Source of the DNA: Chryseolinea lacunae
GTDB taxonomy: Bacteria > Bacteroidota > Bacteroidia > Cytophagales > Cyclobacteriaceae
Length of the DNA: 64,000 bases
Direction of reading: 5' to 3'
Assembly (NCBI RefSeq): GCF_016735595.1
Contig: NZ_JAERRB010000009.1
Coordinates: 1-64,000, forward strand
Part shown: positions 36,592 through 59,000 of the stretch, in pieces
Numbering within the stretch: position 1 is the stretch's first letter
Layout: each line of letters opens with the position of its first letter
Made by a program: the position numbers and the translations under genes
The notes under the pieces: model-generated
What the model saw: the letters and a program-made list of their open reading frames with translations, nothing else
The model's database searches: none
What the model was told of the DNA's origin: nothing

Positions 36592-37704
36592 CTAGGCGTG
36601 ATGGTGTGCGTCGGTTTCCTGGTCTTCGGGCGGCGTTCGTCCACGCCACCACAGGGCCAGCGACGAGCCGGTGATGTTCATCATGGGGCCAAACACGGCG
36701 GCGGCTAAGCCTACCGTGGAAAGCTTGCCCATGGTGAGCGCTATGCCCGATGCCAGACCTCCGTTTTGCAAGCCCACTTCCAGGGCCAGCGTTCGACAGT
36801 CTTTTTCCGACATGCGCAGGCCGCGGCTAATCCAATAGCCCAGCAGGTAGCCCGAGATGTTGTGCATCAGCACCGCCACGATCAACAGCGGGCCAACCAC
36901 CAGCAAGGAATCTCTTCCCGCCGAGGTGATCACCACAATGATGAGCGCGATGCTGATCATAGACACCAACGGCATCACGGCATCTAGCCATGCAAATTTT
37001 CCATGCAGGAAATGGTTAAACAACAACCCGCCGCCAATGGGCAGGATAATGATCTTGGTGATGTCCCACACCATAACCCAGAAGTCGATTTCAACATACT
37101 GGCCTGCCAGCAGGTTCATGAACATGGGGGTGATGAGAGGCGCAAGCAGTGTGGAGATGGCCGTGAGGGTTACGGACAGCGCGAGGTTGGCCCGCGCCAG
37201 ATACGACATCACATTCGACGCCAACCCGTTGGGGCAACTGCCGATGAGGATGATGCCGGCGGCGATCTCGGGCGGGAACGAAAAGATTTGAGTCACCGTC
37301 CAACCTACCAGCGGCATGATGGTGTAGTGACAGAGCACGCCCACGATAACGCCCTTCGGCATTTGCATGACGCGTGCAAAGTCTTTCCAGCTCAACGCCG
37401 TGCCCATGCCAAACATGATGAGCTGCAACAGGGGCACGATGAGTTTCGAAAGTTTGAATCCGCCCACGGTCACAAAGTACTGCGGGTAATACATGGCCAC
37501 GCTCACCGCAGCAAAAATCATGATGGTATACGAATAGCCCTTCAGCAGTGCATAGCCGCGGAAGCCCAGGGCAATCATCACAAAAAATCCCATGAGCAGC
37601 AAGCCTGCATACTGGTGAAGGTCCATCAGCGTGGTGGCGACATAGCCGATGATGAAAAGAATGGCGAGAAAGAAAAACGTCTTCGACGAAAAGAGATTGT
37701 TCAT
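36592..37704 (-). CDS. bile acid:sodium symporter (BASS) family transporter
   Basis: Inner-membrane secondary transporter of 370 residues with about ten transmembrane helices. GIILIGSCPNGLASNVMSYL (about residues 149-168) and ALEVGLQNGGLASGIA (about 315-330) are the two crossover motifs of the BASS fold and include the Na+-site Asn/Glu/Gln residues. Known BASS substrates are bile acids, pantothenate, and pyruvate or other keto acids. Here the gene follows two exported dehydratase/aldolase pairs, so import of a small carboxylic acid, possibly pyruvate, is the attractive inference. The C-terminus is His-rich (DAHHHA). Confidence 0.85.
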   Translation of the reverse strand: MNNLFSSKTFFFLAILFIIGYVATTLMDLHQYAGLLLMGFFVMIALGFRGYALLKGYSYTIMIFAAVSVAMYYPQYFVTVGGFKLSKLIVPLLQLIMFGMGTALSWKDFARVMQMPKGVIVGVLCHYTIMPLVGWTVTQIFSFPPEIAAGIILIGSCPNGLASNVMSYLARANLALSVTLTAISTLLAPLITPMFMNLLAGQYVEIDFWVMVWDITKIIILPIGGGLLFNHFLHGKFAWLDAVMPLVSMISIALIIVVITSAGRDSLLVVGPLLIVAVLMHNISGYLLGYWISRGLRMSEKDCRTLALEVGLQNGGLASGIALTMGKLSTVGLAAAVFGPMMNITGSSLALWWRGRTPPEDQETDAHHHA

Positions 37705-37724
37705 GTGTACTGGCTGTTTAAAGA

Positions 37725-37785
37725 CTTTGCGTCTTCCCTCCTTTTTCGGTGATCACTCATCCGGTTGAAGAGGAAAGACGCAAAG
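37725..37785 (-). other. intercistronic hairpin between dehydratase and transporter genes
   Basis: Bases 37725-37740 and 37770-37785 are 16-base arms complementary at 15 positions, with a 29-base loop. It lies in the 105-base gap between the first enolase-family gene and the BASS gene. It has no T-run on the minus strand, so processing, stabilisation or partial termination are all possible. Confidence 0.55.
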
Positions 37786-37809
37786 ATGTAATGTAAGAAA
37801 TTTAATAAA

Positions 37810-39270
37810 TCAACTCCACAGCCTGTCCCATGAACGGTCTTTGTCCCACTCGGCCGACGACGCGAAATAGCCCGGCATTTCGGGGTCAAGGTGTTTCTTC
37901 ACCACGTCATCATTCAGTTCGATGCCCAGGCCGGGCGAATCCGGAACGTTGGCGTATCCTTTTTCGATCATCGGCTTTTTGGTTTTCACCAGGCTGGTCC
38001 AGTAGTCCACGTCCACCGAGTGGTGTTCGAGGGCCACAAAGTTCTGGGTGGCGGCAGCGCAGTGCACGTTGGCCATAAACGAAATGGGTGTGCCTGCAAA
38101 GTGCATGGCCATGGCCACGCCGCGCTCTTCCGCATAGTCGCCGATCTTCTTGGTTTCCAACAGGCCGCCCGATGTGGCCAGGTCGGGATGCACGAGGTCT
38201 ACGGCGCGTGCGTCGATCAGCTTTATGAATTCTTCTTTCAGATAAATGTCTTCACCCGTCAGCGTTGGTGTTTCGATGGCTTCGGTGATCTGGCGCCATT
38301 GGTCGGTGAACTTCCAGGGGATAAGATCTTCCAGCCAAGCAAGTCTGTATTTTTCTACGGCGCGGCCAAGGCGGATGGCGTTGTTGTGATCGAAGTGACC
38401 GTAGTGGTCGGATGCCAACGGAATTTCGTAGCCAATTTTTTCGCGCACAAACGCGATGCGCTGTGTCATGAGATCAAGGCCTTTGTCGGTGATCTGTACT
38501 TGTGTGAACGGGTGCTCCGTGCCGCCATAGGTCATGGGTTCGTTGGTCCACTGGCGGCCAATATCCCAGTAGTTGCTATTCACCGTTGTGCCTGGTGTGC
38601 CTTTCAGGAGCTCAATGCCAAAGTCCATTTTCATGAAGGTAAATCCTTGTTCCACCATGCGCACGTTCACCTTGTTGGCGAAGTCGGCTTCGTTCTCCCC
38701 TTCGGGGGTGTCGGCATAGAGGCGCACTTTGTCTCTGTATCGTCCGCCCAGCAGCTGGTAGGCCGGCACGTTATAGGCTTTGCCTGCCAGATCCCACAGG
38801 GCCATTTCCACCCCGCACACACCGCCACCCTGGCGTCCGTGAAAGCCAAATTGTTTGATGCGTTTAAAGATCTGCTCCACGCTGCACGGGTTCATGCCCA
38901 TGATGCGGCTTTTCAGAAACATGGCATAGCGCCAGCTGGCACCGTCGCGCACTTCACCCAGGCCCGATATGCCCTGGTTGGTATCGATCCGGATGATGGG
39001 GCAGCGCGCGTGGCCGTTCATGACCACGGCAAAACGCATGTCGGTTATCTTCAGATCGGAAGGCGACGACGCTTTGTTCACCTTGGAGGTGGCTTGCGCG
39101 ATGGTGTCTTCGATGGGACTGAACATGAAACCACCCAGCATAAGGCCACCGGCACCGACTTTCTTCAGGAAGTCGCGGCGGTCGTTGCCCGGGTTTTGTG
39201 CAGCATTCACTTCGGTCACGGGATCTTTTAATCCGAGCCGTTCCAGAAAAGTTTGTGACGGTGTCTTCAT
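37810..39270 (-). CDS. exported enolase-superfamily acid-sugar dehydratase (1)
   Basis: A 486-residue mandelate racemase/muconate lactonizing enzyme family protein. The N-terminus carries a Tat-like signal, DRRDFLKKVGAGGLMLGG (about residues 31-48), so it should be exported folded. Catalytic elements are visible: KMD after TFM (K-x-D), SDHYGHFD (first metal Asp), WLEDLIPW (Glu), TGEDIY (Glu), HPDLATSGGL (Asp of the His/Asp dyad) and MHFAGTPISF (His). Such enzymes dehydrate aldonic acids to 2-keto-3-deoxy acids. The exact substrate is unknown; it is only distantly similar to the second copy at 40596-41879. RraA gene 56 bases upstream; transporter downstream. Confidence 0.88.
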   Translation of the reverse strand: MKTPSQTFLERLGLKDPVTEVNAAQNPGNDRRDFLKKVGAGGLMLGGFMFSPIEDTIAQATSKVNKASSPSDLKITDMRFAVVMNGHARCPIIRIDTNQGISGLGEVRDGASWRYAMFLKSRIMGMNPCSVEQIFKRIKQFGFHGRQGGGVCGVEMALWDLAGKAYNVPAYQLLGGRYRDKVRLYADTPEGENEADFANKVNVRMVEQGFTFMKMDFGIELLKGTPGTTVNSNYWDIGRQWTNEPMTYGGTEHPFTQVQITDKGLDLMTQRIAFVREKIGYEIPLASDHYGHFDHNNAIRLGRAVEKYRLAWLEDLIPWKFTDQWRQITEAIETPTLTGEDIYLKEEFIKLIDARAVDLVHPDLATSGGLLETKKIGDYAEERGVAMAMHFAGTPISFMANVHCAAATQNFVALEHHSVDVDYWTSLVKTKKPMIEKGYANVPDSPGLGIELNDDVVKKHLDPEMPGYFASSAEWDKDRSWDRLWS

Positions 39271-39326
39271 AGTTAGGGGTAGTGAAGGTTTAGTTTGACA
39301 ATTTTTTTAAGGGCGATGCCAGAGCA

Positions 39327-40256
39327 TCACCACGATCTCTTCTTCATGAACTCGTCAAGTTCCTGACGGGTCATGGGCAGTTTGCCGGGGTTTTGATCCA
39401 GCCATTTCAGAAAGTCTTTCTTGATGTCGTCGGTCCACTGCTGGTCGATCTGACCAGGGGTGTATTTTCCTTCGCGCAGGCGCTGATGACCGAACTGATC
39501 GCGCAGTGCGATGAACTCGGCGTTGATCACCACTTCTTCGAGCATGTGGGCCGGTATGAACACAATGCCGCCCTTCTTGGCCAGCACGGCATCGCCGGGC
39601 AACACGGTGACACGGCCAATGCGGATGGGGGTGTTAATGCCGCCCAACATCATCTCCTGGATGTAGGAAGGATCGTAGCCTTTTATCCAGGCGTTGAAGC
39701 CTTCAATTTTCTCCAGCCCCTCCGTGTCGCGCACGGAGCCGTAGAAGATGACGCCGTTTTTGGATTTGGCATAGATGGAATTGCCGAGGTTGTCGCCAAT
39801 AAGTGTGCCGTCCACAATTTTACCATAGCTGTCGGCCACATACACGTCGCCGGGTTTCAGCATATCGATGGGCCACGAGTTGAAGCCACCGATGCGGCCT
39901 TCGGCTTTGCCTTTGTCTTTGATGATCTTGTCGTAGTCGGGGCGGCGCGGCCAGTATTGCACGGTGAGCGCGCGGCCTGTCAGCACCTGTTCGGAGCGCA
40001 GCAGCATCCAGTCGCCTTCAAACTGGTTGTTGTAGCCCGCGTTGCGCAAAATGCCCCACGCTTCTTCCAGCGAAATACCCTTGAGGCGTTCCAGCATTTT
40101 GTCCGACACATTGGGGCGACCATCGGGCAAACGGTCGCCTTTCCATTCGGGCGTGAGCGCGATGATTTGTTCTTTCGACAGGGTGACCACTTGTGCCCAT
40201 GCGGGAAGCGACAGCAGTGAAATTAAAACGACGAGGATGAGTTGGTTAGCTTTCAT
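39327..40256 (-). CDS. exported RraA-family aldolase-like protein (1)
   Basis: A 309-residue protein with a signal peptide (about residues 1-21, MKANQLILVVLISLLSLPAWA) and an RraA/HMG-aldolase fold. The active-site segment GDNLGNS (about 159-165) and GSVRD (Arg and Asp that bind substrate and metal in 4-hydroxy-4-methyl-2-oxoglutarate aldolases) are conserved, so it is probably an enzyme that cleaves a hydroxy-keto acid or decarboxylates a keto acid, and not an RNase E regulator. An N-terminal TPEWKGDRLPDGRP and a C-terminal YTPGQIDQQW are shared with the paralogue at 41921-42874. Export of an RraA protein is unusual. A TTG 24 bases upstream is in frame; the ATG at 40256 is chosen. Confidence 0.85.
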   Translation of the reverse strand: MKANQLILVVLISLLSLPAWAQVVTLSKEQIIALTPEWKGDRLPDGRPNVSDKMLERLKGISLEEAWGILRNAGYNNQFEGDWMLLRSEQVLTGRALTVQYWPRRPDYDKIIKDKGKAEGRIGGFNSWPIDMLKPGDVYVADSYGKIVDGTLIGDNLGNSIYAKSKNGVIFYGSVRDTEGLEKIEGFNAWIKGYDPSYIQEMMLGGINTPIRIGRVTVLPGDAVLAKKGGIVFIPAHMLEEVVINAEFIALRDQFGHQRLREGKYTPGQIDQQWTDDIKKDFLKWLDQNPGKLPMTRQELDEFMKKRSW

Positions 40257-40595
40257 TTTTTTGATGGATCTAGATTTCAAAAAATTTAGGAAGAATAATC
40301 AACGTATGCGGTGCATTGTTACGAGAGGGGTTATAAGGCTACAGTTACGGTCATTATGAAATATGTTTGTCTTCGCACACACCACCGCAAGCTGTATGCG
40401 TCCCTGATGGTTGTTGAAACATCCGCGTATCCATTTTTCCCAGGCAATAACAATTGTCACAACGTGTGTGCGATGTGTCGGTCTACGTTCTTGGTTCTTC
40501 ATAAAAATCTGTTCTTTAGTTTCCTGCAAACACTCAATGTGCTTTCGCACAGCGGAAGAAAACTTGACGTGTTTCTTTCCTGTACGAACGAGGTG
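40257..40595. other. 339-base gap between the two enzyme pairs
   Basis: No gene is seen. The gap is less G+C-rich than the flanking genes and probably carries the promoter for the second half of the cluster (RraA, dehydratase, transporter), but I see no full match to the -33/-7 consensus. The minus-strand TAAATTTTTTG at about 40284 is the nearest -7-like sequence. Confidence 0.5.
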
Positions 40596-41879
40596 TTATT
40601 CAAAAAACGGAACGCCCTTCGTGGCATACTTGCGCATACCTTCTTCGTTGATCTCCACCCCTACGCCGGGTTTCTCAGACAGCGTGATGAATCCGTCCTT
40701 CACCATGGGGCCGTCGAACGTCACGATTTCTTTGAACATGGGATCGGTGTGAAAATAAATCTGCCACTCCAGAATCAGGAAGTTGGGCACGGAGGCACAC
40801 ACATGACACGACGCCATGGCACCGAGATAGGAAGCCACCATATGCGGCGCAAACGGCACGTAATAAAGATTGGCCATGTTGGCAATGCGTTGCCCCTCTC
40901 CCAGCCCACCGGCTTTTTGCAAGTCGGGCATCACAATGTCTACTGCGCCCAGCTCCAGCATGCGGCGGAAGCCGTAGGCGAGGTAGTGATTTTCGCCGGC
41001 GCAAATGGGTGTGCTGGTCGATTCGGTGATGTTGCGATAGGCCTCCACGTTTTCGGCGGGGATGGGTTCTTCCAGCCACATGAGGTTGAGCGGCTCGAAA
41101 CGTTTGGCTATTTGTTGTCCTGTCACGGCGTCGTAGCGGCCGTGCATGTCAACACAGATGTCGATCTTGGGACCAACAGCTTTGCGCACGGCGGCGATCT
41201 GATCGTACATGCGTTGCAATTCTGCAGGGCCGGCCGTCCAGTTGTAGGCGTCGTATTTGTTGGGGTCTTTGGCTTCGTCGATGTCGAACTTCACGGCGGT
41301 GAATCCCATCTTCACGGCTTCCGCGGCGGCTTCGGCAAATTTCTCAGGGGGTGGTGAGTCGGCGCGATACAAGGCGGTGTCGCAATAGACGCGGATGCGG
41401 TCTCTGAATTTTCCGCCGAGCAATTGATATACCGGCACGCCCAGGGCTTTTCCGGCAAGGTCCCACAGCGCACTTTCCACGGCCGACAACACGGCCACAA
41501 ACATGCCCGACTGTGCGCCTTCAAAGAAGCCCGACTTGCGTATGTCTTCGAACAACCGGTTCACGTTGAGCGGACTCTTGCCTTTGATGCGTTCGCCAAA
41601 CATTTTCACCAGGTGATAGGTGCCCGGTGTTGCGTCCACACCTTCGCCACACCCCCAGATACCCTGGTTGGTGTGTATCTTCACAAACAGACTGTGGCCA
41701 TTGCGAATGTAGCCACACTTGATGTCGGTGATTTTCAGATCGGCCGGTGCCGACAACTTCGGTGCGCGATCGACTGCCGTTTCAAGGCCTTTGCCAAAAC
41801 CAGCCAGCGAGGTGAATCCTAACGCACCAGCCAGCGCGCTCTTGGTAATAAAATTTCTACGGGATGATTGATATGCCAT
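40596..41879 (-). CDS. exported enolase-superfamily acid-sugar dehydratase (2)
   Basis: A 427-residue mandelate-racemase subgroup protein with a Tat-like N-terminus (SSRRNFITKSALAGALGFTS, about residues 5-24). Catalytic residues: KFD in TAVKFDID (K-x-D), VDMHGR (metal Asp plus a His two residues on, as in galactonate dehydratase), WLEEPIP (Glu), AGENHY (Glu), MPDLQKAGGL (Asp) and PFAPHM (His). The D-x-H pair suggests an aldonate dehydratase such as a galactonate-type enzyme; substrate not proven. It lies 41 bases downstream of the second RraA gene. Confidence 0.88.
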   Translation of the reverse strand: MAYQSSRRNFITKSALAGALGFTSLAGFGKGLETAVDRAPKLSAPADLKITDIKCGYIRNGHSLFVKIHTNQGIWGCGEGVDATPGTYHLVKMFGERIKGKSPLNVNRLFEDIRKSGFFEGAQSGMFVAVLSAVESALWDLAGKALGVPVYQLLGGKFRDRIRVYCDTALYRADSPPPEKFAEAAAEAVKMGFTAVKFDIDEAKDPNKYDAYNWTAGPAELQRMYDQIAAVRKAVGPKIDICVDMHGRYDAVTGQQIAKRFEPLNLMWLEEPIPAENVEAYRNITESTSTPICAGENHYLAYGFRRMLELGAVDIVMPDLQKAGGLGEGQRIANMANLYYVPFAPHMVASYLGAMASCHVCASVPNFLILEWQIYFHTDPMFKEIVTFDGPMVKDGFITLSEKPGVGVEINEEGMRKYATKGVPFFE

Positions 41880-41920
41880 GTGTGTTCGGAAGGTTAAGCG
41901 TTTTTATTTTTTTATTGATA

Positions 41921-42874
41921 CTACCACGTGCGTGTCTTCAGATACTCCTGCACCTGTTCTTTGGGCACGGGCAATTTGTTGATGTGTTGATTGAGCCATT
42001 GCGAAAAGTCTTTTTCAATTTCATCTGACCACCGGTTATCGATCTGCCCCGGTGTGTATTTCTGCTGACGCAGGCGCTCGTGGCCAAACATGTCGCGCAA
42101 GCGCACGATCTCGGATGTCTTCACCACTTTCTCGGCGAGGTGTGGTGGAATGAAGATCACACCGCCGTCGCGGCCCAGCACCACGTCGCCGGGAAGCACC
42201 ATGGCTTTGCCGATGCGCGTGGGGCGGTTGATACCCACCAATGTGGTGTTGAGGTCGCCGTCGGGATTGTTGAGGTGATGCGACGGATGATAAGTTCTGA
42301 AGAAAGATGTGAACGATTTAATTTCTTTTAGCCCCACGATGTCGCGGATGGCGCCGTCGTAGACAATGCCGTTGCCGCTCTTGGCGAAGATGGAGTTGCC
42401 GAGGTTGTCGCCAATGGTGGGGCCGTCTTCATGGGCACCAAACTGATCCACCACATACACATCGCCCTTCACCAGCATGTCGATGGGCCAGGCGTTTTGC
42501 GATTTGATGCGGCCATCCTGTTCATGTCCCTTTTTGTCGATGACGCGTTGCACGTCGGGGCGGCCGGGCATGAAGGTGGCGGTCAACGCCCGCCCTACCA
42601 GCACGCTGTCGGGATTGATGCACATCCAGCCGTCGTCGTAGTTGTGTTTGTAGTTCTCGCCTTTCAGCACGGCCCACGCTTCTTCGAGCGTGACCAGCTT
42701 CATGCGTTTCAAAATGGCGTCGGGCACTTTGGGTCTTCCGTCGGCAAAGCGTTCGCCTTTCCATTCGGGTGTCAGGAAAAGCAGTTCTTCTTTCGAAATC
42801 TGTTGCGCAAGGCCACTCAGCGATGTGCAACACAAGAGCAGGAGCAGCAGAAAAACGTTTTGCTTGGTTCGCAT
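41921..42874 (-). CDS. exported RraA-family aldolase-like protein (2)
   Basis: A 317-residue paralogue of the protein at 39327-40256, roughly half identical by eye. It has a signal peptide (about residues 1-25, MRTKQNVFLLLLLLCC then TSLSGLAQ) and the same TPEWKGERFADGRP, GDNLGNS, GAIRD and YTPGQIDNRW motifs, including the catalytic Arg-Asp pair. A longer frame from 42997 would place the signal peptide 41 residues inside; the ATG at 42874 is chosen. The duplication of an RraA-dehydratase pair is discussed in the findings. Confidence 0.85.
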   Translation of the reverse strand: MRTKQNVFLLLLLLCCTSLSGLAQQISKEELLFLTPEWKGERFADGRPKVPDAILKRMKLVTLEEAWAVLKGENYKHNYDDGWMCINPDSVLVGRALTATFMPGRPDVQRVIDKKGHEQDGRIKSQNAWPIDMLVKGDVYVVDQFGAHEDGPTIGDNLGNSIFAKSGNGIVYDGAIRDIVGLKEIKSFTSFFRTYHPSHHLNNPDGDLNTTLVGINRPTRIGKAMVLPGDVVLGRDGGVIFIPPHLAEKVVKTSEIVRLRDMFGHERLRQQKYTPGQIDNRWSDEIEKDFSQWLNQHINKLPVPKEQVQEYLKTRTW

Positions 42875-42939
42875 AGGGAAAAGTTTTAGCAGCCGAGGTT
42901 GTCCCCGGTGTTTAGATGAATGAAATACAATCCTTTTTG

Positions 42940-42991
42940 AAAGAAAAAAGTCAGACACCGGCGTCCGTGCTTTCGGCGCACGGTGTCTGAC
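42940..42991 (-). terminator. terminator after susD
   Basis: Eleven-bp perfect arms (42950-42960 with 42981-42991) enclose a 20-base loop. On the minus strand they are followed by CTTTTTTCTTTC. It starts 13 bases after the susD stop (43004) and cuts the SusC/D transcript from the following RraA gene, so that cluster needs its own promoter or read-through. Confidence 0.85.
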
Positions 42992-43003
42992 GTTCAAATT
43001 TTA

Positions 43004-44527
43004 TTATTTATCCCACCACACTTTCGTGTCGAGGTTGTCGGGGCCCTGGTCGGTGATGGCCGCTTGCACCTTCGCGTTGTTCACCAGCAATTCGGAGGGA
43101 GGATAGGTGAGTCGCGTAATGAAGTCCACCGTTCTTCCGGGGAAAGGATTTACGGCGAGCACCGGGAAGCCTGTGCGGCGGAAGTTAGACCATGCTTCGG
43201 GTCCATTCAGGAAAGAAGCCACCCAATATTCATAGCCAATTTGCGACAGCTCGTTGCCGTCGAACGTGTCGAGCATGTCGCCCACATAGGTGTCGCGATC
43301 TGCGCCGGCCACCGTTGAGTTCACGTCATACAACGCCATCTGGTCCATGTGTGCCTTGATGCCTGCCGAATAGAAGTCGGCGGCTGTGCCATCGGTTACC
43401 CAACCTTTAAGGCGGGCTTCTGCCAGCAACAGGTTAGACTGTCCGGCCGTGACCAGAAACACGGGCGATGTGCGTTTCACCAGGCGCGTGCGATCCACCT
43501 GGCTGTAGGCATAGCGTGCGCCACCGCCGGGCAAAGTACCGGCCGACACATCGGCCGTGCCATCGGTGCTGCCCATAGGCATGCCGTATTGGTTGGCGAT
43601 GGCCGTAGTGGCCACACCTGCTACCTGTCCGGGGCCGGAAGTTGCACCCACATAGCGAACGGCAATGGCCGACAGTCGCGGGTCGTTGTTGTTCTTCAGG
43701 GCGTCTACAAAGGGAGCGGCCAGGTAATAGTTTGCTGCTTCTGTGCTGTTCAGCAGGTTGCCTACCGGGCTCACAAAGTTAGCATCGTGTTTCACCACAG
43801 CGTTGTCTGCATTCACCAGAATCACACCCCCTGCATAGGCGTGGGTCACGGCGGCTTGTGCTGCTGTGGCATTTGCCGCACTCAGGCGCATCCCGGCACG
43901 CAGCAACAGCGAGTAGCCAAACTTTTTCCACTTGGCAATGTTGCCGGCATAGAGCACGTCGGTTGTTTCCACTTTTCCGGCAGCATCGAGGGCATCTGTG
44001 GCTTCGGTCAGCTCCTTAATGATATCGGTGTAGATGACATCCTGTTTTTGATAGTCCGGAAAAAACACCTGGTCGGAATAGCCTTTGCCTGCGTTGGTGT
44101 AGGGCACACTGCCATAGGTATCGGTGAGCACGATGAACGCATTGGCCCGCACGATGCGCGCCATGTTGGTGAGGTTGCTCCGCGTGGTGTTGGTGCTGTT
44201 GCGCACAATCACATCGGCGGTATACTTCACCACGTTTTGGTAGTAGTTGATCCAGACGGCCGGGGTGTTGTTGATGTTCACCTGGTTGAAGTTGGCGCCC
44301 ACCAGCAAGCCGGTGTTGGAAGAAATTACCTGCTGCACAATGCCGGCTTCATAGTTCATGGAGCCTGCGGGAAACGACGAAAAGATGACAGCGTCGTTGA
44401 GCACCAGCGCAGGGTCGAGATTGGTGATGCCCGTTTTGCTGGTGTTGAGTTCATCAAAATTGTTTTCACATGACGTGATGACGCTGAACACGCATATCAG
44501 AAAACTGAGGTTTATTATCTTTTTCAT
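43004..44527 (-). CDS. SusD/RagB-like nutrient-binding lipoprotein
   Basis: Surface lipoprotein of 507 residues that binds the nutrient and acts as a lid on the SusC transporter. The lipobox is in the N-terminus MKKIINLSFLICVFSVITSC, with Cys20 as the lipidated residue. The sequence is of the SusD-like type 2 group: FDELNTSKTGITNLDPALVL, WINYYQNVVKYTADV and the TPR-like RIVRANAFIVLTDTYGSVPY are all typical, and the C-terminus ends PDNLDTKVWWDK. It starts 11 bases after susC. The ligand cannot be read; the neighbours suggest an acid sugar or oligomer thereof. Confidence 0.93.
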   Translation of the reverse strand: MKKIINLSFLICVFSVITSCENNFDELNTSKTGITNLDPALVLNDAVIFSSFPAGSMNYEAGIVQQVISSNTGLLVGANFNQVNINNTPAVWINYYQNVVKYTADVIVRNSTNTTRSNLTNMARIVRANAFIVLTDTYGSVPYTNAGKGYSDQVFFPDYQKQDVIYTDIIKELTEATDALDAAGKVETTDVLYAGNIAKWKKFGYSLLLRAGMRLSAANATAAQAAVTHAYAGGVILVNADNAVVKHDANFVSPVGNLLNSTEAANYYLAAPFVDALKNNNDPRLSAIAVRYVGATSGPGQVAGVATTAIANQYGMPMGSTDGTADVSAGTLPGGGARYAYSQVDRTRLVKRTSPVFLVTAGQSNLLLAEARLKGWVTDGTAADFYSAGIKAHMDQMALYDVNSTVAGADRDTYVGDMLDTFDGNELSQIGYEYWVASFLNGPEAWSNFRRTGFPVLAVNPFPGRTVDFITRLTYPPSELLVNNAKVQAAITDQGPDNLDTKVWWDK

Positions 44528-44538
44528 GCGATGTGCGA

Positions 44539-47500
44539 TTAAAATTTAACATTCAAGTTGAAGCCGATGCTGCGGGTTGTGGGCACGCTGGGCGATTCCA
44601 GTCCCACCACGTTGTCGGAACCGTAGCTGAAGCTTTCGGGGTCGATGTTGGGCACCCATTTTTTCAGCATCAGCACATTGTTGGCCACGAAGCTGAGGCG
44701 AAGCCCCTTGATCGGGAACGACGCGCTGAGAAACTTCGTGAAGTCATAGCCCACGGTTATCTGGCGCAACTTCCAATAGCCTGCGTCGTAGATGACCGGC
44801 TCAATGAGTCCTGAACCCCGCACCACCGAATAGAAGTCTTCGGCAACGGCAGCCACGTTGTTGATTTCGCTGGCGGCATTCACGCCCACGCCAACCACCG
44901 CGCCTTTTTGCGCGCCCGTTACAGGGTCAACGCCACCTTCTCTGCCCACCAGGGTTTCTTTCGACAAACCGTGGCGATAGGCATTGAAGTTTGTTCCGGA
45001 CAACACTTTGCCACCCAGCTTGAAGTCGATGAGGACGGAAGCCGTTATGCCTTTGTAGTTGAAAGCGTTTGTGAACCCGCCTACCCACTTGGGCAACGCG
45101 CTTCCAAAGGGTATGAGTTTGGTAGTGGGCAGGGCCACACCGTTGGCGCCATACACAATCATGCCCTTGTGATCGGGATTGACAGAACCGTCGTCTCTGC
45201 GATAGCCAAAGCCAACGATCTGACCCAGCTCTTCGCCCACAATTTGCTGCACAAAGCCGTTGAACACGTGTGTGCCCGTGGTGATGTTTTCACCCGGTGT
45301 GTCGGTGATGATGCTCAGCACTTTGGTGATGTTGTAGGCCCCGTTGAACGTGAAGTCCCACTGGAAGTTGTCGGTGCGCACGGGCACCAGGTTCACCATC
45401 AATTCGATGCCTTTGTTCTGGCTCTTACCGCTGTTGATAAGCGTGTTGATGTAGCCCGAAGCGTCAGACACCTGTGCACGCACGATCTGATCGGTGGTGA
45501 TTTTCTTATACACAGCCAGGTCGACGTTGACGCGGTTGTCGAACATTTTTAATTCCAAACCCAATTCGGTTTCGTCCACTTTCATGGGGCGAAGGTTGGC
45601 GTTGGGCACAAGCGTTGCAGAGGTTCCCACCGGTTGACCGCCAAACTGGTTGGCGTTTACCGAATAGAAAAGCTGGTTGGCATAGGGCGGCACATCCGAG
45701 TCGCTACCCACGCTGGCAAACGCTGCCCTCACCTTTCCAAAGTTGAGCCAGCTCAAATTGTCGCCAAGGGTTTGCGTGAACACATAGCTGGCCGACACCG
45801 ATGGATACAGGATGCTGCGGTTGCCGGGCGACAGTGTGCTGAACCAGTCGTTGCGGACGGTGGCATTGAGGTAGAGAAACTGTTTGTAGTTTACTTCGGC
45901 TGTTCCATAAAGTGAATTCACACCACGTTCAACCAGATCGTAGGTAGGATCTTTTGCACGACCGTTTTGCACGGTATACAAATCTTTTACCACAAAGTCT
46001 GTTACCTGCACAACGTTGGAGTCGAAGCGCCGGCGCATCTGGTTTCCGCCGCCGGTCACATTCAATCCGAAGTTACCAAACTCTTTGTTGAAGGTGAGCA
46101 GGAAGTCTATGTTGGTTTCGCGGAAGCGGCGTGCCTCCTGCGTGTAGAGGCCGTTGAAGAATCCCGGAACGGCTGCCAGCACTGAACCCGAGCTGATGGA
46201 TGCTTTGCCGGTAGGCAGGTTGATGTAGTCAGAATCGCGTGTCCAGAAATCCTGACCGCCGCGCACTTGCAACGACAGCCATTTTGTGAAATCATATTTC
46301 ACCGAGAGATTTCCCATGATGCGATCGCGGCGAATGTTGCCCTTCACCTGGTCGAGCACCCAATAGGGATTGGTGCGGTTGGTGAAACGCGAATACAAAT
46401 ATTCGCCACCGCCGGGATTGTAGGCGTTTGCACGCAGCAACTCCAACGGCATGGTGTTGGCCATGGCATAGAGCGATGTGGGAATGGAGTTGTCCTGGTC
46501 CGACACTACGGGAGGATTTTTCGTGACCTCGTTGGCATAGTTCACGTTGCCCTTGAAGCTGAATTTCGACGACAGGTCGTAGCTAAAGCCCAGGTTAAGC
46601 GTGTTGCGTTTGTAGGAGTTGTTGGGCGTAACACCCTTGCTGTCCATGTTGGACACCGACAGGTTCATGCCACCCTTGTCGCTGTTGGCCGAAAGCGACA
46701 CGCTATTGGTGAAGTTCTGACCGTGGCGATAAAATTTATTGAGGATGCCTTTCTGCGCCACATAGGGCACTTGCACATTGTTGTATAACAACTGTGTCAT
46801 GCCAGGCTCGATTTTGGGACCAAACGACCATTGGCCTGTGGTGGGATTGGGAAGTGCACCTGCCGACGCGGGGCCAAGTCCGTTTTCGCCCTGACCATAT
46901 TCGTATTGATAGTCGGTGAAGTCCAAAATCTTTTCGTCGGTGTAGTTCATGTTGTAGGTCACGCCGATGCCACGTGCGCCGATGGTGCGCGACTTGGTGG
47001 TGATCATGATCACGCCGTCTTTTGCACGCGATCCGTAGAGGGCTGCGGCTGTGGCGCCTTTCAGCACCGTCATGTTTTCGATGTCGTCGGGGTTGATGCT
47101 GTTCAAGCCGTCGCCACCGTCGGTCGACGCTCCACCGCCTTTGTTGGCCACCGAGTTGTCGCCGGCGGTGTTGCCTTGGTTGGTACCGAAGCTGGTGTTG
47201 TCAATGGGCACACCGTTCACCACGATGAGCGGCGTGTTCTGACCACCAAACGATGATTGGCCACGGATACGAATCTTTGAAGATCCACCGGGGCCAGTGC
47301 CCAGCGACGTCACGTTCACACCGGCCACTTTGCCTTGCAACGTGCTCATCACGTTCGAACCACGGTTCACCGAGATCTGGTCGCCGGTTACTTTCGATGT
47401 GGCATAGCCCAAGCTCTTGGCCGACTTCTCGATGCCCAAAGCCGTCACTACTACTTCATCCAACGATTGCAGGTCGGGGTTTAAAGAAATGTCTATTACG

Positions 47501-48165
47501 GTGCGTCCGCCCACAGGAGTTTCCTGTGACGCATAGCCTACGAACGAGAACACCAGCACGGCATTGTCGTCGGCCACGGTGAGGGAGAACTTTCCATCGG
47601 AGTCGGTAGTAGTTCCGTTAGTCGTTCCTTTTTCCACCACGTTCACACCGGGGAAGCCCACGCCCGATTCGTCTTTCACCACACCGGTGATGGTCTTGGC
47701 GGCAATGGCGGCGCGCACATCAACCCGTTGAATGGGTTCGGCGGTTGCAAACGTGCTGAAGTCTTCCGCTTTATCGAGTGCCAGCGAAGGCACCATGAGC
47801 GTGGAGCTCTGGGGCTGGTTGGCGCTGCGCATTTGTTTTTTGTAAATCACATAAAAATTGTCGCCGGCTTTTTCATAGTACAGGCCGGTGTCTTTCAACA
47901 CACTGTCGAGGGCTTGTTCCACACCTTTGAAGGTGGCGGCCGAAAAGTGAACCTGCTTGTTCTCAATCCATTCGTCTTTGTAGGCAATAGAGATGGAATA
48001 CGATCGCTCGAGTTCACTCAACGCTTGCTTCAGAGAGCTCACGTCTCCGGAACGTTGCTGTGCGTGCAGGGGTCGGCTCACCGCCGCATACACTTGGTCG
48101 TGTTGCGACATTGCCTGAACGTGCACCATCAGCAACAAGCCGAGTAGTAGGTAGCAATTTTTCAT
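44539..48165 (-). CDS. SusC/RagA-type TonB-dependent transporter with STN domain
   Basis: Outer-membrane importer of 1208 residues. Signal peptide (about 1-20), an STN domain (about 35-110, with SLKQALSELERSYSISIAYK), a carboxypeptidase-regulatory-like repeat (about 155-230, TGVVKDESGVGFPGVNV), the plug with the SusC signature (IRGQSSFGGQNTPLIVVNG and IENMTVLKGATAAALYGSRA), and a large barrel ending in SIGFNLNVKF. The STN domain is the signalling part that contacts a FecR-type anti-sigma protein, and fecR is the gene directly upstream, so expression should be substrate-induced. It is co-transcribed with susD. Confidence 0.95.
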   Translation of the reverse strand: MKNCYLLLGLLLMVHVQAMSQHDQVYAAVSRPLHAQQRSGDVSSLKQALSELERSYSISIAYKDEWIENKQVHFSAATFKGVEQALDSVLKDTGLYYEKAGDNFYVIYKKQMRSANQPQSSTLMVPSLALDKAEDFSTFATAEPIQRVDVRAAIAAKTITGVVKDESGVGFPGVNVVEKGTTNGTTTDSDGKFSLTVADDNAVLVFSFVGYASQETPVGGRTVIDISLNPDLQSLDEVVVTALGIEKSAKSLGYATSKVTGDQISVNRGSNVMSTLQGKVAGVNVTSLGTGPGGSSKIRIRGQSSFGGQNTPLIVVNGVPIDNTSFGTNQGNTAGDNSVANKGGGASTDGGDGLNSINPDDIENMTVLKGATAAALYGSRAKDGVIMITTKSRTIGARGIGVTYNMNYTDEKILDFTDYQYEYGQGENGLGPASAGALPNPTTGQWSFGPKIEPGMTQLLYNNVQVPYVAQKGILNKFYRHGQNFTNSVSLSANSDKGGMNLSVSNMDSKGVTPNNSYKRNTLNLGFSYDLSSKFSFKGNVNYANEVTKNPPVVSDQDNSIPTSLYAMANTMPLELLRANAYNPGGGEYLYSRFTNRTNPYWVLDQVKGNIRRDRIMGNLSVKYDFTKWLSLQVRGGQDFWTRDSDYINLPTGKASISSGSVLAAVPGFFNGLYTQEARRFRETNIDFLLTFNKEFGNFGLNVTGGGNQMRRRFDSNVVQVTDFVVKDLYTVQNGRAKDPTYDLVERGVNSLYGTAEVNYKQFLYLNATVRNDWFSTLSPGNRSILYPSVSASYVFTQTLGDNLSWLNFGKVRAAFASVGSDSDVPPYANQLFYSVNANQFGGQPVGTSATLVPNANLRPMKVDETELGLELKMFDNRVNVDLAVYKKITTDQIVRAQVSDASGYINTLINSGKSQNKGIELMVNLVPVRTDNFQWDFTFNGAYNITKVLSIITDTPGENITTGTHVFNGFVQQIVGEELGQIVGFGYRRDDGSVNPDHKGMIVYGANGVALPTTKLIPFGSALPKWVGGFTNAFNYKGITASVLIDFKLGGKVLSGTNFNAYRHGLSKETLVGREGGVDPVTGAQKGAVVGVGVNAASEINNVAAVAEDFYSVVRGSGLIEPVIYDAGYWKLRQITVGYDFTKFLSASFPIKGLRLSFVANNVLMLKKWVPNIDPESFSYGSDNVVGLESPSVPTTRSIGFNLNVKF

Positions 48166-48246
48166 AGGTTATGGTTTTAAGTTGTGTAGTTCGTTTCCGG
48201 GTTAATAAACAAATCACATCGGCAGTCTCACGTCTTCATGTTTTCT

Positions 48247-48264
48247 GATGCAGGCCCCTGCATC
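48247..48264. other. small hairpin between fecR and susC
   Basis: A perfect 8-bp inverted repeat (48247-48254 with 48257-48264) with a 2-nt centre sits in the 119-base gap between fecR and susC. It may lower read-through or mark an operator; position is the only evidence. Confidence 0.45.
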
Positions 48265-48284
48265 CGGGTTTGGCTATACGTTGT

Positions 48285-49286
48285 TTATTCTTCAATTGAA
48301 ATTGTCTGTCCGTTGCGGGTGATCTTCAGCTGAAAGGCTTTTGCCATCTGCTGCAGCAACACGTCGTCGTCGCCCAGGGGCATGGACCCCGACACGGTTT
48401 GTTCGAGCAAGGTGGTGTCGGTCACCTTCACATCGAGTCCATAGTTGTCGGTGAGCATGCGCACCATTTCGCCGAGGCTGGTGTGGTTGAGCATGATCTT
48501 GTTTTGCGTCCACGCGGTGTAGAGCCTGGGGTCCACTTCTTCTTTCTTATACTTGCTGCCTTTGAACTCGACCATGTCGCCGGGTTTCATCAGAATTTTT
48601 TCGCGTGTTTTTTCCAGCGGGAGGTTGAGGCGAATCTGGCCCGAGTTGAGGATGACGGTGGTTTTGAGGGTGCGCTTATAGACGTTGAACGTGGTGCCCA
48701 ACACTTCCACGCTCACGCCATCGCTGGTCATGACTTTGAAAGGTTTGTGATCTTTGGTGTGCACCACCGAGAAGAACGCTTCGCCTTCGAGCCAGATTTC
48801 GCGTTCGGGCTTTTCGGTCCAGTTGTTCAGAATGCGGAGGGAGGAGTTGGCGTTGAGGATGACTTTGGAATTGTCGGGCAGCACCACGGTTTTGGTTTCG
48901 CCATAGGCGGTGGTGTATTCCTTCCAGGGTTTTGTGCCGGTCATGAAGTAGACGGCCGTTACCATCAGCAGGGTGATGACGGCTGCGGCCACGCCATACC
49001 ACCGGTAGGCCGGGGCCATGAGCGAACGGCCTTGCTCGCGGGCCGTGTCGATGTGCCGCACCCGGTCCCAGAGCTGGGCCAGGTCTTCGGTTGACAACGT
49101 GTGGTTCGAGAACCGGATGCTTTCCAGGATGGCACGGGCTTCTTCTACGTCTTCGCGTTTTTCGGGATGCTGCTTGAGCCAGGCCTCCCAAAACACGTGC
49201 GCGCTGTGGTCGCCCGGGTGCGCCACCCAATAGTGGAAATAGTCGTCGGTCACAAAGTCGTTTACCGAGAAATTAGTATACTTCAT
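48285..49286 (-). CDS. FecR-family anti-sigma/signal transducer
   Basis: A 333-residue single-pass inner-membrane protein. Cytoplasmic part about residues 1-85 with FWEAWLKQHPEKREDVEEA, which resembles the sigma-binding segment; membrane helix about 95-115 (VAAAVITLLMVTAVYFM); periplasmic FecR domain (about 125-225, AYGETKTVVLPDNSKVILNA) and a C-terminal DUF4974 domain (about 260-333) that mirrors STN. It receives the signal from the STN domain of the SusC protein and controls an ECF sigma factor. No ECF gene is adjacent; the only one in the window is at 16913, 31 kb away. Start at the ATG at 49286, not the upstream frame. Confidence 0.92.
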   Translation of the reverse strand: MKYTNFSVNDFVTDDYFHYWVAHPGDHSAHVFWEAWLKQHPEKREDVEEARAILESIRFSNHTLSTEDLAQLWDRVRHIDTAREQGRSLMAPAYRWYGVAAAVITLLMVTAVYFMTGTKPWKEYTTAYGETKTVVLPDNSKVILNANSSLRILNNWTEKPEREIWLEGEAFFSVVHTKDHKPFKVMTSDGVSVEVLGTTFNVYKRTLKTTVILNSGQIRLNLPLEKTREKILMKPGDMVEFKGSKYKKEEVDPRLYTAWTQNKIMLNHTSLGEMVRMLTDNYGLDVKVTDTTLLEQTVSGSMPLGDDDVLLQQMAKAFQLKITRNGQTISIEE

Positions 49287-49440
49287 CACAGGTCGTAAAG
49301 GTCGGTTTGGGTGTGAATAAGCCTTAAGAGGGGGCACTTTGGGAGATCTCACCGTTTTTTTTGAAAATATTTTTTCAGCGAAGCCGAAGCCGGTTTGAAA
49401 AGGCTGTCATTACTATATGGATTGAGTTAGTCTTTGTTGT

Positions 49441-49645
49441 AGGGTGTGCATCGATGTGGGGCCTGAAGGAATTGGGTTGCGGATGGCATGTGCGTGGCCG
49501 GGCAGCGATCGCAACGGAAAGCCCACAGCCGCGGGGATTGCGGGTGGGGCGAGGACTTGCAGTGGAGAGCGCGGTGCCCCGACGCGTCGGGCAGCCCGCA
49601 TGGATGGTTCCCGACATGCCGATTGTTAGACCCTTGCGGCAAGCG
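49441..49645. repeat. G+C-rich structured intergenic element
   Basis: This part of the 415-base fecR-ribF gap is clearly richer in G+C than its surroundings. It contains two similar segments, GATCGCAACGGAAAGCCC (49507-49524) and GACTTGCAGTGGAGAGCGC (49553-49571), and a perfect 14-bp palindrome CCCGACGCGTCGGG (49578-49591). I recall similar short G+C-rich intergenic segments with such GGAAAGC boxes in other Bacteroidota, which would make this a dispersed repeat or structured RNA; that is memory, not a search. No ORF is supported. Confidence 0.45.
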
Positions 49646-49701
49646 CAGACCCTCCTCCCATTTCCTAATTTTTATACCTTTAGGGCCGAAACCAGAATGG
49701 G

Positions 49702-56030: not shown

Positions 56031-59000
56031 ATGATTGATTATTTACGAACACTGAAAAGAAGGATTCTCCTGCTGGGGATGCTCCTCTGCTGTGCCGCCA
56101 CTGGCTGGGCGCAGGAGTATCAGCAGAGCGTCCGGAAGGGTATGGTAAAGGTCAAAGTCTCTGCGGAGATGGCCTCCACCCTAAGCCAGGCGCGTGTGCG
56201 CCCCGGCAAAGAACTGAGCACGGGCATTCAGCCCCTCGACGCCGTGGCCAAGCGCACGGGTGCCAAAAACATGTATCGCCTGTTTCCCTTCAACCCCAAG
56301 ATCGAAGCCAAGCTGCACAAGCATGGGCTGGACCTTTGGTATGTGGTGGAGCTTGACGAAAACACCGACCCCAACGACGCGGTGGCAGCCTACAAAAAAG
56401 TGAGCGGCGTGACGCTGGCGGAAACCGACCATCTCAAAATTGTGAGCCCTTTCAAAGTGCAGGAGTTCAAGGGCAACCCCGTGTCGCCTATGGGTGGCAC
56501 AATGCCCTTCAACGACCCCATGCTGCCCTCGCAGTGGCACTACAACAACACCGGGCAGTCGGGCTACACGCCCGGCTCGGACATCAACCTGTTTGAAGCC
56601 TGGAAGATCACGGCCGGCAAACGCGGTGTGATTGTGTCTATTCACGACGAAGGTGTGGACGTGGCCCACAACGACCTTGCGGCCAACATCTGGACCAACG
56701 AGGCAGAGCTGAACGGCAAGCCCAAAGTGGACGACGACAACAACGGCTATGTGGACGACATTCACGGCTGGAACTTTGACAACAACAACGGCCAGATCGA
56801 TCCGCAATTTCACGGCACACACGTGGCGGGAACCATCGCGGCGGTGAACAACAACGGCATTGCCGTGTCGGGCGTGGCCGGTGGCACAGGCAAGAACGAC
56901 GGCGTGCAGGTGATGTCGATGCAGACCCTGGGCGGCGGAAGCTTCGAAAACTCCTATGTGTATGCGGCCAGTAACGGTGCCGTGATTTCGCAAAACAGCT
57001 GGGGCTATACCAACCCCGGTTCCTTCGATCAGTCGGTGCTCGATGCCATCGACTACTTCATTGCCGAAGCCGGAAACTATAGCGGCAGTCCCATGCGGGG
57101 TGGCCTTGTGATTTTTGCCTCGGGCAACAGCAACACCGACGAGCCTTTCTATCCGGCCTTCCACCCCAGCGTGGTGGCCGTGAACTCGATTGGTCCCGAC
57201 TATAAGCGAGCATACTATTCCAACTATGGTGTGTGGACAGACATTACCTCCACGGGTGGCAACACCGACCTGGGTGGCACCAGCGGTGTGTTGAGCACGC
57301 TGCCCAACAACAAGGTGGGCTACATGCAAGGCACATCCATGGCCTGCCCGCACGTGTCGGGTATTGCCGCACTGGCCTTGTCTAACCGCACGCACCAGAT
57401 GACGGCCGACGAGCTGCGCAATCAGATCGTTACCGGCGTGCGCGACATTGAAGAATACAATCCTGACTTTGTAGGCTTGCTGGGCTCGGGCCTCACCGAC
57501 GCTAAACTCGCCATTCAGAACGACGGCAAAATTGCTCCCGCCACCATTGGCGATCTGAAGATCACTGCGCTGGCGCAAGAGCTTGCCACACTAACGTGGA
57601 CGGTACCCGCCGACGGCGACGATGGCCGCGCCATTCGTTTTGAACTTTACTACTCCACCACTCCCCTCACTGCCGCCAACCTGAGCCAGGCCGAAAAGAT
57701 AGCCGTCGGCACAAAGCTTGGAGCCGGCGAAACGGTGAGCCTGGAAGTGAATGAACTCAGCAGCCTCACCACCTACTATTTTGGTGTGGTGGCCTTCGAC
57801 CGCTGGGGCAACGGCTCCGTGCTTTCGAACATCGCGCAAGGCACCACCAACGATGGTCCAACCATTGCTGTTGACGACGCCAGTAAAAACATCAGCCTTT
57901 CCATTGATGCGTCGAACACAAACACCGCAGAGCACACCATCAACCTGCTGAACCAGGGCGAAGGGTTGCTTCGCTGGACAGGTTTTTCGCGCAGCAAAGA
58001 ACACAACACTACCTTCCTGGCAACGGGCTTGAACTATCCTGTGGCCAGCAAGGTAAAAACTGCTTCTGTGGCCACGCTTACCAAGCGCGAGGCCAACACC
58101 GCTGCATCGAACAAGAACAAGATCTCCACGCTGTCGTTTGGTGGCGAGCAGATTGGTTATGGTTGGGACTGGCCCATCACGCTCATTGGCGAGATGGACA
58201 CCACCATCGCCAACTCGTCGGCCACACGTTTTGAGGTGACCGAAGATGCGGGCTTCAACCTCACGCACGTGCAGATGTGGCTCCGTCAGAATCCGAAGAA
58301 AGGTCCCATCATTGTGGAAGTCTACAAGGAAACCCTTCAGAAGAAAAACCTGATCGGCGCGCAGGAATACAACGTGCCGCCTTCGCCCTGGGACGAGAAC
58401 CAGTCTATCCAACTGGATGAACAACTCTTCTTCGAAAAAGGTGAAGTGTTCTGGATCGTGTTCCATGTTCCCGCCGGCAACCTCTATCCGCTCGGCGTGG
58501 CTGAAGCGATGGACGAAGCGTATTCCGAAAACTGTATGATTTCGTTTGACCTTGGTGCTACCTGGGCGCTGTTGCCCGAAGTGATTCACGACAGCCGCTA
58601 TGTGTGGTCTACCATCGCCACATCCTATAGCCAGGACCTGGGCAAGTATTTAACACTCACGCCTTCGGAAGGCGAATTGAGTGGTCAAAGCGATGCAGAC
58701 GTGTTGCTGACGGCCGATGCTGCGCAGTTGCTGAACGGAAACTATTCTGCCAACATCATTTTGAAATCGAACGACAGCAAAACACGTGAGCTGCGCTTGC
58801 CTGTGGAGCTGACCGTGACGGGCCAGCGGCCGGTGTTGCAATCGGCCGACGTAGTTGATTTCGGCAGTGTGTTTAATGGCAAATCGAAAGAGATGACGGT
58901 GACCGTGACCAACAACGGCTACGGCCATTTTGAAAGTCCGGTGACCACACTTTCGAATGCACAGTTTGAAATTATCGGGGGCGAGCCGTGGCAGATTGGC

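Follow-up and report, generated by a model that had tools for sequence, protein, structure and literature searches.

A gene cluster common to many Bacteroidota appears to place two sugar-acid breakdown steps outside the cytoplasm

Introduction

In the non-phosphorylating aldonate pathways of the Entner-Doudoroff and Dahms types, a dehydratase converts the acid to a 2-keto-3-deoxy acid that an aldolase splits to pyruvate and an aldehyde; both enzymes work in the cytoplasm, and the aldolase does not have the RraA fold. These two normally intracellular steps appear, from sequence, to be placed outside the cytoplasm by a gene cluster common to many Bacteroidota, described here from a 64,000-nucleotide stretch of Chryseolinea lacunae DNA (the window; contig NZ_JAERRB010000009.1, positions 1 to 64,000) that belongs to a 7.9-Mb genome in 29 contigs. 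The cluster comprises eight genes, all on the minus strand and running from 49286 to 36592 in the order fecR, susC, susD, RraA1, DHT1, RraA2, DHT2 and BASS, where RraA1 and RraA2 are RraA-fold proteins, DHT1 and DHT2 enolase-superfamily dehydratases and BASS a transporter. This layout had been described in an original prediction made from the letters of the window, and its strand, order and coordinates were borne out by the coordinates of the open reading frames (ORFs) and by Pfam and NCBIfam; the observation of the locus is confirmed.

For the RraA family and its member 4-hydroxy-4-methyl-2-oxoglutarate/4-carboxy-4-hydroxy-2-oxoadipate (HMG/CHA) aldolase, the available part of one study describes aromatic-ring cleavage or RNA degradosome binding (PMC5065237). 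No paper describing the locus was found among the literature matches listed, in searches that mostly left out subscription literature; the original prediction knew of no described pathway with this layout. The nearest match, which reconstructs how arabinonate is used in Halomonas, features, in the part of the paper available, an acid transporter and a lactonase without this layout (PMC5507952).

Proposed pathway

It is proposed, with a probability of about 0.55, that the locus encodes uptake and extracytoplasmic, non-phosphorylating breakdown of aldonates to pyruvate and an aldehyde. SusC and SusD would carry the substrate across the outer membrane as a free aldonic acid, as the lactone of that acid or as an acid-capped oligosaccharide, candidate acids being pentonates, gluconate and galactonate. 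DHT1 and DHT2, exported by twin-arginine translocation (Tat), would dehydrate the acid to 2-keto-3-deoxy acids, which the cognate Sec-exported RraA proteins would cleave to pyruvate and a short aldehyde in two parallel pairs, and BASS would import one of the organic acids involved, which may be a product of the pathway or the unaltered aldonate. The chemistry of the families and the conserved residues are the basis for these steps; actual export, the substrate, the aldolase reaction and the substrate and direction of the transporter are inferred. The original prediction had also placed an acid-sugar pathway outside the cytoplasm, and this interpretation is partly supported. In its favour are the pairs of an acid-sugar dehydratase and a pyruvate-aldolase-type protein, whose export signals are conserved, the acid-sugar genes near the locus in certain relatives, and the presence of an organic-anion transporter in the operon; its pyruvate importer (see below) is not supported, and the mechanism is plausible.

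Conservation and pairing of RraA and dehydratase genes

A genome scan with RraA2 yielded the primary sample of 73 loci, nearly all titled as Bacteroidota and with a genus placement that is partly our assumption; RraA2 was called in 69. The gene order, which the original prediction had suggested seeking in other genomes, recurs in these, with RraA2-DHT2 in 61, RraA2-DHT2-BASS in 35 and a major facilitator superfamily (MFS) transporter in place of BASS in six. Over a wider set of stretches, RraA2 is followed by DHT2 in 72/98 and RraA1 by DHT1 in 35/42, and a single crossed pair, which is a distant one, was found among 108 adjacent RraA-dehydratase pairs. No two RraA proteins are identical beyond residue 60 in the 101 stretches with a called RraA. 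The arrangement is not due to chance, and the pairing indicates that each RraA has its own cognate dehydratase.

As RraA2 had served to select most of these loci, DHT2 was used to select a second sample, for which 12 of 296 genomes of the phylum matched at 1e-100, one of them the window's own. An RraA gene adjoins a DHT2 copy in all 11 others (nine on the same strand, two divergent), four of which carry a second DHT2 copy, and BASS lies in the cluster in five of the ten that were fetched, in agreement with the first sample. RraA2 relatives at 1e-20 are present in 62 of 291 genomes of the order, including the window's own. The nearest relative found with a species name, Chryseolinea serpens (L033), encodes an RraA2 that is 90% identical and repeats the whole eight-gene order. 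A usual order in Chitinophagaceae is IlvD-SusD-SusC divergent from AraC-kinase-RraA-DHT-BASS-RraA-DHT, four loci of this type adding a lactonase gene beyond IlvD.

RraA proteins

RraA1 (41921..42874, minus strand; PF03737, 56.4 bits) and RraA2 (39327..40256, minus strand; PF03737, 68.2 bits) are approximately 47% identical, both score above the PF03737 cut-off, and they are the only RraA-family matches in the window's genome. Both are candidate class II pyruvate aldolases with Sec-type signals. The predicted structure of RraA2 (predicted local distance difference test, pLDDT, 91) has as its best fold matches RraAS2 (5x15), 5ir2, which is titled as a cellulase, 3k4i and the HMG/CHA aldolase 3noj. 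Sequence alignment places Asp, Arg and Asp of RraA1 at Asp102, Arg123 and Asp124 of 3NOJ, numbered as counted on that alignment, and the RraA2 equivalents are D163, R184 and D185; the Asp residues presumably form the metal site. All three residues are kept in 40/40 RraA1-type proteins, R184 and D185 in 94/94 RraA2-type proteins and D163 in 86 of these. In the HMG/CHA aldolase the R123K substitution lowers kcat 181-fold, as given in the available text (PMC5065237). In view of the export signals and the pyruvate-aldolase motif on both proteins, a role as RNase E regulators was rejected.

The eight RraA2-like copies that lack the first Asp have Ala or Ser there and come from five loci (L121, L126, L127, L129 and L133); seven of them sit where two RraA genes adjoin, and they may be non-catalytic partners or have another chemistry. 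These copies would also suit a scheme in which dehydration is extracytoplasmic but RraA decarboxylates the keto acid or aids the dehydratase, with the intact keto-deoxy acid being imported. BASS or MFS stands immediately after RraA2-DHT2 in 41/69 loci, imported acids would be in keeping with the cytoplasmic kinase and IlvD partners that some relatives have, and the HMG/CHA aldolase is stated to decarboxylate oxaloacetate as well (PMC5065237, available part). The strict RraA-dehydratase pairing and the Arg-Asp motif, invariant in the 94 and 40 proteins, suit instead catalysis on the dehydratase product, and a non-aldolase RraA is considered unlikely.

Dehydratases

DHT1 (40596..41879, minus strand; MR_MLE_C, 215 bits) and DHT2 (37810..39270, minus strand; MR_MLE_C, 170 bits) are among five enolase-superfamily matches in the window's genome, one of which is below the cut-off. 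The top curated NCBIfam model for both is galactonate dehydratase, with scores of 265.6 bits for DHT1 and 191.3 bits for DHT2 against a cut-off of 311, so that neither can be named as one particular dehydratase. Their nearest solved structure is 2QQ6, which is without assigned function; it is also the first fold match of the predicted DHT2 structure (pLDDT 84.8), whose first 20 matches include the D-gluconate-bound 3t6c (rank 15) and the gluconate dehydratase 3TW9. Both proteins have what we take to be the three acidic metal ligands and the His-Asp dyad of the superfamily, namely D244 (41/42) and E270, E296, D319 and H346 (42/42 each) in DHT1-type proteins, and D288, E314 and E340 (82/82 each), D363 (81/82) and H390 (82/82) in DHT2-type proteins. 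The third-strand His of galactonate dehydratase, at its presumed position, is retained in 42/42 DHT1-type proteins.

The exported enzymes might use aldaric acids, galactarate or glucarate derived from oxidised uronic acids, and thereby yield pyruvate and tartronate semialdehyde, since talarate/galactarate and glucarate dehydratase models match both dehydratases and 4jn7, a putative galactarate dehydratase, appears in the list of fold matches. However, models for aldonate dehydratases give the higher scores, and the scanned partners (see below), which include no uronate enzyme, indicate gluconate, galactonate, arabinonate and xylose; aldarates are considered unlikely substrates. A muconate-lactonizing role in aromatic metabolism was rejected, as the relevant models reach only 103.4/70.3 bits, compared with 265.6/191.3 for acid-sugar dehydratase. 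A DHT2 copy at G395:C3:718116-719561, one of two in its genome, is reported with one internal TGA stop.

Export signals

At the N-terminus of RraA1 and RraA2 lies a hydrophobic signal with AWAQ or GLAQ as its last residues, whereas in DHT1 and DHT2 a twin-arginine motif precedes a hydrophobic stretch: SRRNF at residues 6-10 of DHT1, and RRDFLKK from residue 31 of DHT2, where the NCBIfam model TAT_signal_seq scores 21.7 bits (cut-off 16.7). With TatC encoded in the same genome, both dehydratases have the features of Tat substrates. The inner ATGs immediately ahead of the RraA signal peptides are probably the true starts, at 42874 for RraA1 (317 aa; listed ORF 41921-42997) and at 40256 for RraA2 (309 aa; listed ORF 39327-40280). 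When one simple rule was applied to every group of full-length proteins, the Tat motif was found in 41/41 DHT1 and 74/81 DHT2 relatives and the hydrophobic signal in 32/39 RraA1 and 79/93 RraA2 relatives, some of the misses arising because the simple gene caller set starts too far upstream. SusC (41/47) and SusD (45/47) served as positive controls, and the cytoplasmic partners were negative throughout (0/61: GntK 0/24, AraC 0/20, IlvD 0/17). The Sec- or Tat-like signals and visible catalytic residues ascribed to the four enzymes by the original prediction were upheld and are conserved among relatives.

DHT2 has a leader of approximately 30 residues (39181-39270) before its Tat motif, which is partly conserved, a strict leader pattern being found in 43/79 relatives. 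This leader would be in keeping with cytoplasmic enzymes whose N-terminal signals have been misread and which serve an ordinary non-phosphorylating pathway, as would the fact that start sites are predicted and that signals were judged by a simple rule. The recurrence of the signals in most relatives, their absence from the 61 cytoplasmic partners and the presence of TatC make such a location very improbable, and point to actual export of the four enzymes.

The BASS transporter

The last gene (36592..37704, minus strand; PF01758, 137.6 bits) encodes a member of the BASS (SBF) family of inner-membrane organic-anion:Na+ symporters, and scores 244 bits with the PanS model, below the cut-off of 400. 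Aligned to ASBT_NM, it keeps the sodium-site residues Ser114 and Asn115 as well as Asn265, with Thr112 replaced by Leu and His294 by Met. In the available part of a study of ASBT_NM, Asn265 is required for pantoate, the disruption of ketopantoate binding is blamed on Asn265, and plant keto-acid BASS proteins have Ser and Gln at positions 265 and 112 (PMC10645422). The locus BASS proteins have Asn at position 265 in 58/58 and Leu (49), Met (8) or Thr (1) at position 112, and thus not the Ser and Gln of the keto-acid type; by these residues, the binding site resembles the pantoate-binding type.

A control of 30 fetched loci, in 19 of which a profile recovered a protein (11 loci unrecovered), comprised the window's own protein, four of locus type, nine canonical paralogues and five distant proteins with another site. 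All nine canonical non-locus paralogues, from genomes of the order, also have Asn at 265. Since the control shares this residue, the residue test was dropped as proof of hydroxy-acid transport and argues only weakly against pyruvate; the pyruvate importer of the original prediction is nonetheless unsupported. In other loci a galactonate-type MFS transporter stands beside the pair or, in L099 (8538-15108), a tripartite tricarboxylate transporter in a row with DHT2, RraA and another enolase-superfamily gene, which fits import of some organic acid.

Neighbouring genes and substrate

Partner genes were counted in the 101 stretches by BLAST at 1e-15 with half of the query covered, and the partner names rest on one or a few members each. 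A gluconokinase-type FGGY kinase was found in 23, an arabinonate-dehydratase-like IlvD in 18, a Gfo/Idh/MocA protein with xylose 1-dehydrogenase as its nearest model in nine, a galactonate-type MFS transporter in seven and a GntP gluconate permease in six, together with hydrolases (SASA esterase 4, feruloyl-esterase-like 3, arabinofuranosidase 1). The coverage rule was dropped for SMP-30 lactonase (5) and two GH43 enzymes (3 each), because the stretch end cuts some of these genes. The kinase, Gfo and MFS partners score below curated cut-offs. The Gfo partner is Tat-type in 7/8, and four lactonase N-termini resemble, by eye, lipoprotein signals.

Carbohydrate-active enzymes lie beside the relatives L037, L043, L082 and L112. 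A genome of the window's own family has an RraA1-DHT1-BASS module with a GH3 gene alongside (L112, L132, L133), and SusCD, kinase, GH97, GH43, arabinofuranosidase, esterase and SMP-30 genes within about 20 kb. Away from the locus, the window's genome encodes a homologue of IlvD that shares 66% identity with a partner and is followed by an SDR gene (L170:9692-12214), a lactonase (L172) and, with 70-74% identity to partners, a GH43 pair (L175).

The lactonase, dehydrogenase, kinase, IlvD, transporter and hydrolase partners point to aldonic acids, which look more probable direct substrates than uronic acids and are perhaps pentonates from arabinoxylan, although C5 and C6 acids both fit. More tentatively, a whole extracytoplasmic branch may be widespread in free-living Bacteroidota, in which an arabinoxylan aldose would be oxidised to its lactone by the Tat-exported Gfo/Idh/MocA protein, the lactone opened to the aldonate by the lipoprotein SMP-30 lactonase, the aldonate dehydrated by the Tat-exported dehydratases and the 2-keto-3-deoxy acid split to pyruvate and an aldehyde by the Sec-exported RraA proteins, a reaction new to the fold, with only small acids being imported.

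Points against the proposed pathway, and what it would mean

Several observations weigh against aldonate breakdown by the exported pairs. We know of no RraA-fold aldolase that splits a 2-keto-3-deoxy sugar acid, and first metal-site Asp residues are missing from the eight RraA2-type copies noted above; the RraA-fold aldolase described in the available part of PMC5065237 uses HMG, CHA and oxaloacetate. Neither DHT1 nor DHT2 reaches any NCBIfam equivalog cut-off, and the third-strand His position is mostly Tyr in DHT2-type proteins (63/82), flanked by two conserved His residues (81/82 each), so that the chemistry of DHT2 may differ. The first ten residues of the DHT2 leader are modelled at pLDDT 88, which is unneeded for a cleaved signal.

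Partner names are weak, only the GntP and IlvD subfamily models passing cut-offs; the kinase and IlvD links occur mainly within one group of relatives and thus partly reflect shared ancestry, and neither gene adjoins the locus in the window. Among the remaining neighbours, sampled as 117 near proteins, carbohydrate families are not clearly enriched over random stretches. Candidates for this test were dereplicated and cleared of the kinase, AraC, IlvD and MFS clusters, 118 of 319 being drawn; one of these, a spurious ORF lying over RraA in L099, was discarded, and 115 of 209 random-stretch proteins formed the control; Gfo (4) and SMP-30 (2) occur in the near set and are not among the control's 25 listed families, numbers too small to claim enrichment.

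If the proposed aldonate pathway holds, a large group of plant-polymer degraders would break carbon-carbon bonds of sugar acids outside the cytoplasm, the widespread but largely unassigned RraA fold would gain a sugar-acid aldolase role, and the reading of pentose and aldonate use from Bacteroidota genomes would change.

Other genes of the locus and window

Pfam assigns SBF, two pairs of MR_MLE_N and MR_MLE_C, two RraA-like domains, SusD-like_2, a TonB plug with CarboxypepD_reg, and FecR to the row. The SusC/RagA TonB-dependent outer-membrane transporter (44539..48165, minus strand; NCBIfam TIGR04056, 644.6 bits, cut-off 368) and the SusD-like lipoprotein (43004..44527, minus strand; PF12771, 250 bits) form the tandem SusC/SusD pair typical of polysaccharide utilization loci. 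They are preceded by a FecR-type anti-sigma regulator (48285..49286, minus strand; Pfam FecR, 54.7 bits), the start of which is most likely the ATG at 49286, as originally given, and not the upstream GTG of the ORF list. An extracytoplasmic function sigma gene next to FecR is absent from the window (region 48285-49700) and from Chryseolinea serpens, and a sigma-type gene lies immediately upstream of FecR in the relatives L034-L036, L095, L097 and L098.

The gap between DHT1 and RraA2 (40281-40595, approximately 315 bases) contains no called gene and is wide for an otherwise tight row. A phosphoribosyl pyrophosphate synthetase, recognised by eye, lies 42 bases beyond the eight genes. The window also encodes a TPR-CHAT protein (4033-6714) and a subtilase of 2493 residues that carries a type IX secretion tail (56031-63512).

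Comparison with known systems

We know of no described RraA-family protein that combines export with an acid-sugar dehydratase as its partner. The locus shares with Entner-Doudoroff and Dahms-type pathways the succession of a dehydratase and an aldolase, but its four enzymes carry export signals and its aldolase candidate is of the RraA fold. That candidate has the fold and the Asp-Arg-Asp site of the HMG/CHA aldolase and the RraA family. With the galactonate, gluconate and mannonate dehydratases of the enolase superfamily, DHT1 and DHT2 have in common the fold, metal ligands and His-Asp dyad; they differ from these enzymes in being Tat-type, in scoring below every equivalog cut-off and, for DHT2, in the third-strand Tyr. 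The BASS protein shares its family with ASBT_NM and PanS, and the sodium-site residues and Asn265 with the former, from which it departs at positions 112 and 294; it falls below the model for PanS, a named ketopantoate carrier. Finally, like the polysaccharide utilization loci of Bacteroidota, the locus has SusC/SusD with FecR, but Pfam finds no glycoside hydrolase or carbohydrate-active lyase among its eight genes, which encode acid-sugar enzymes instead.

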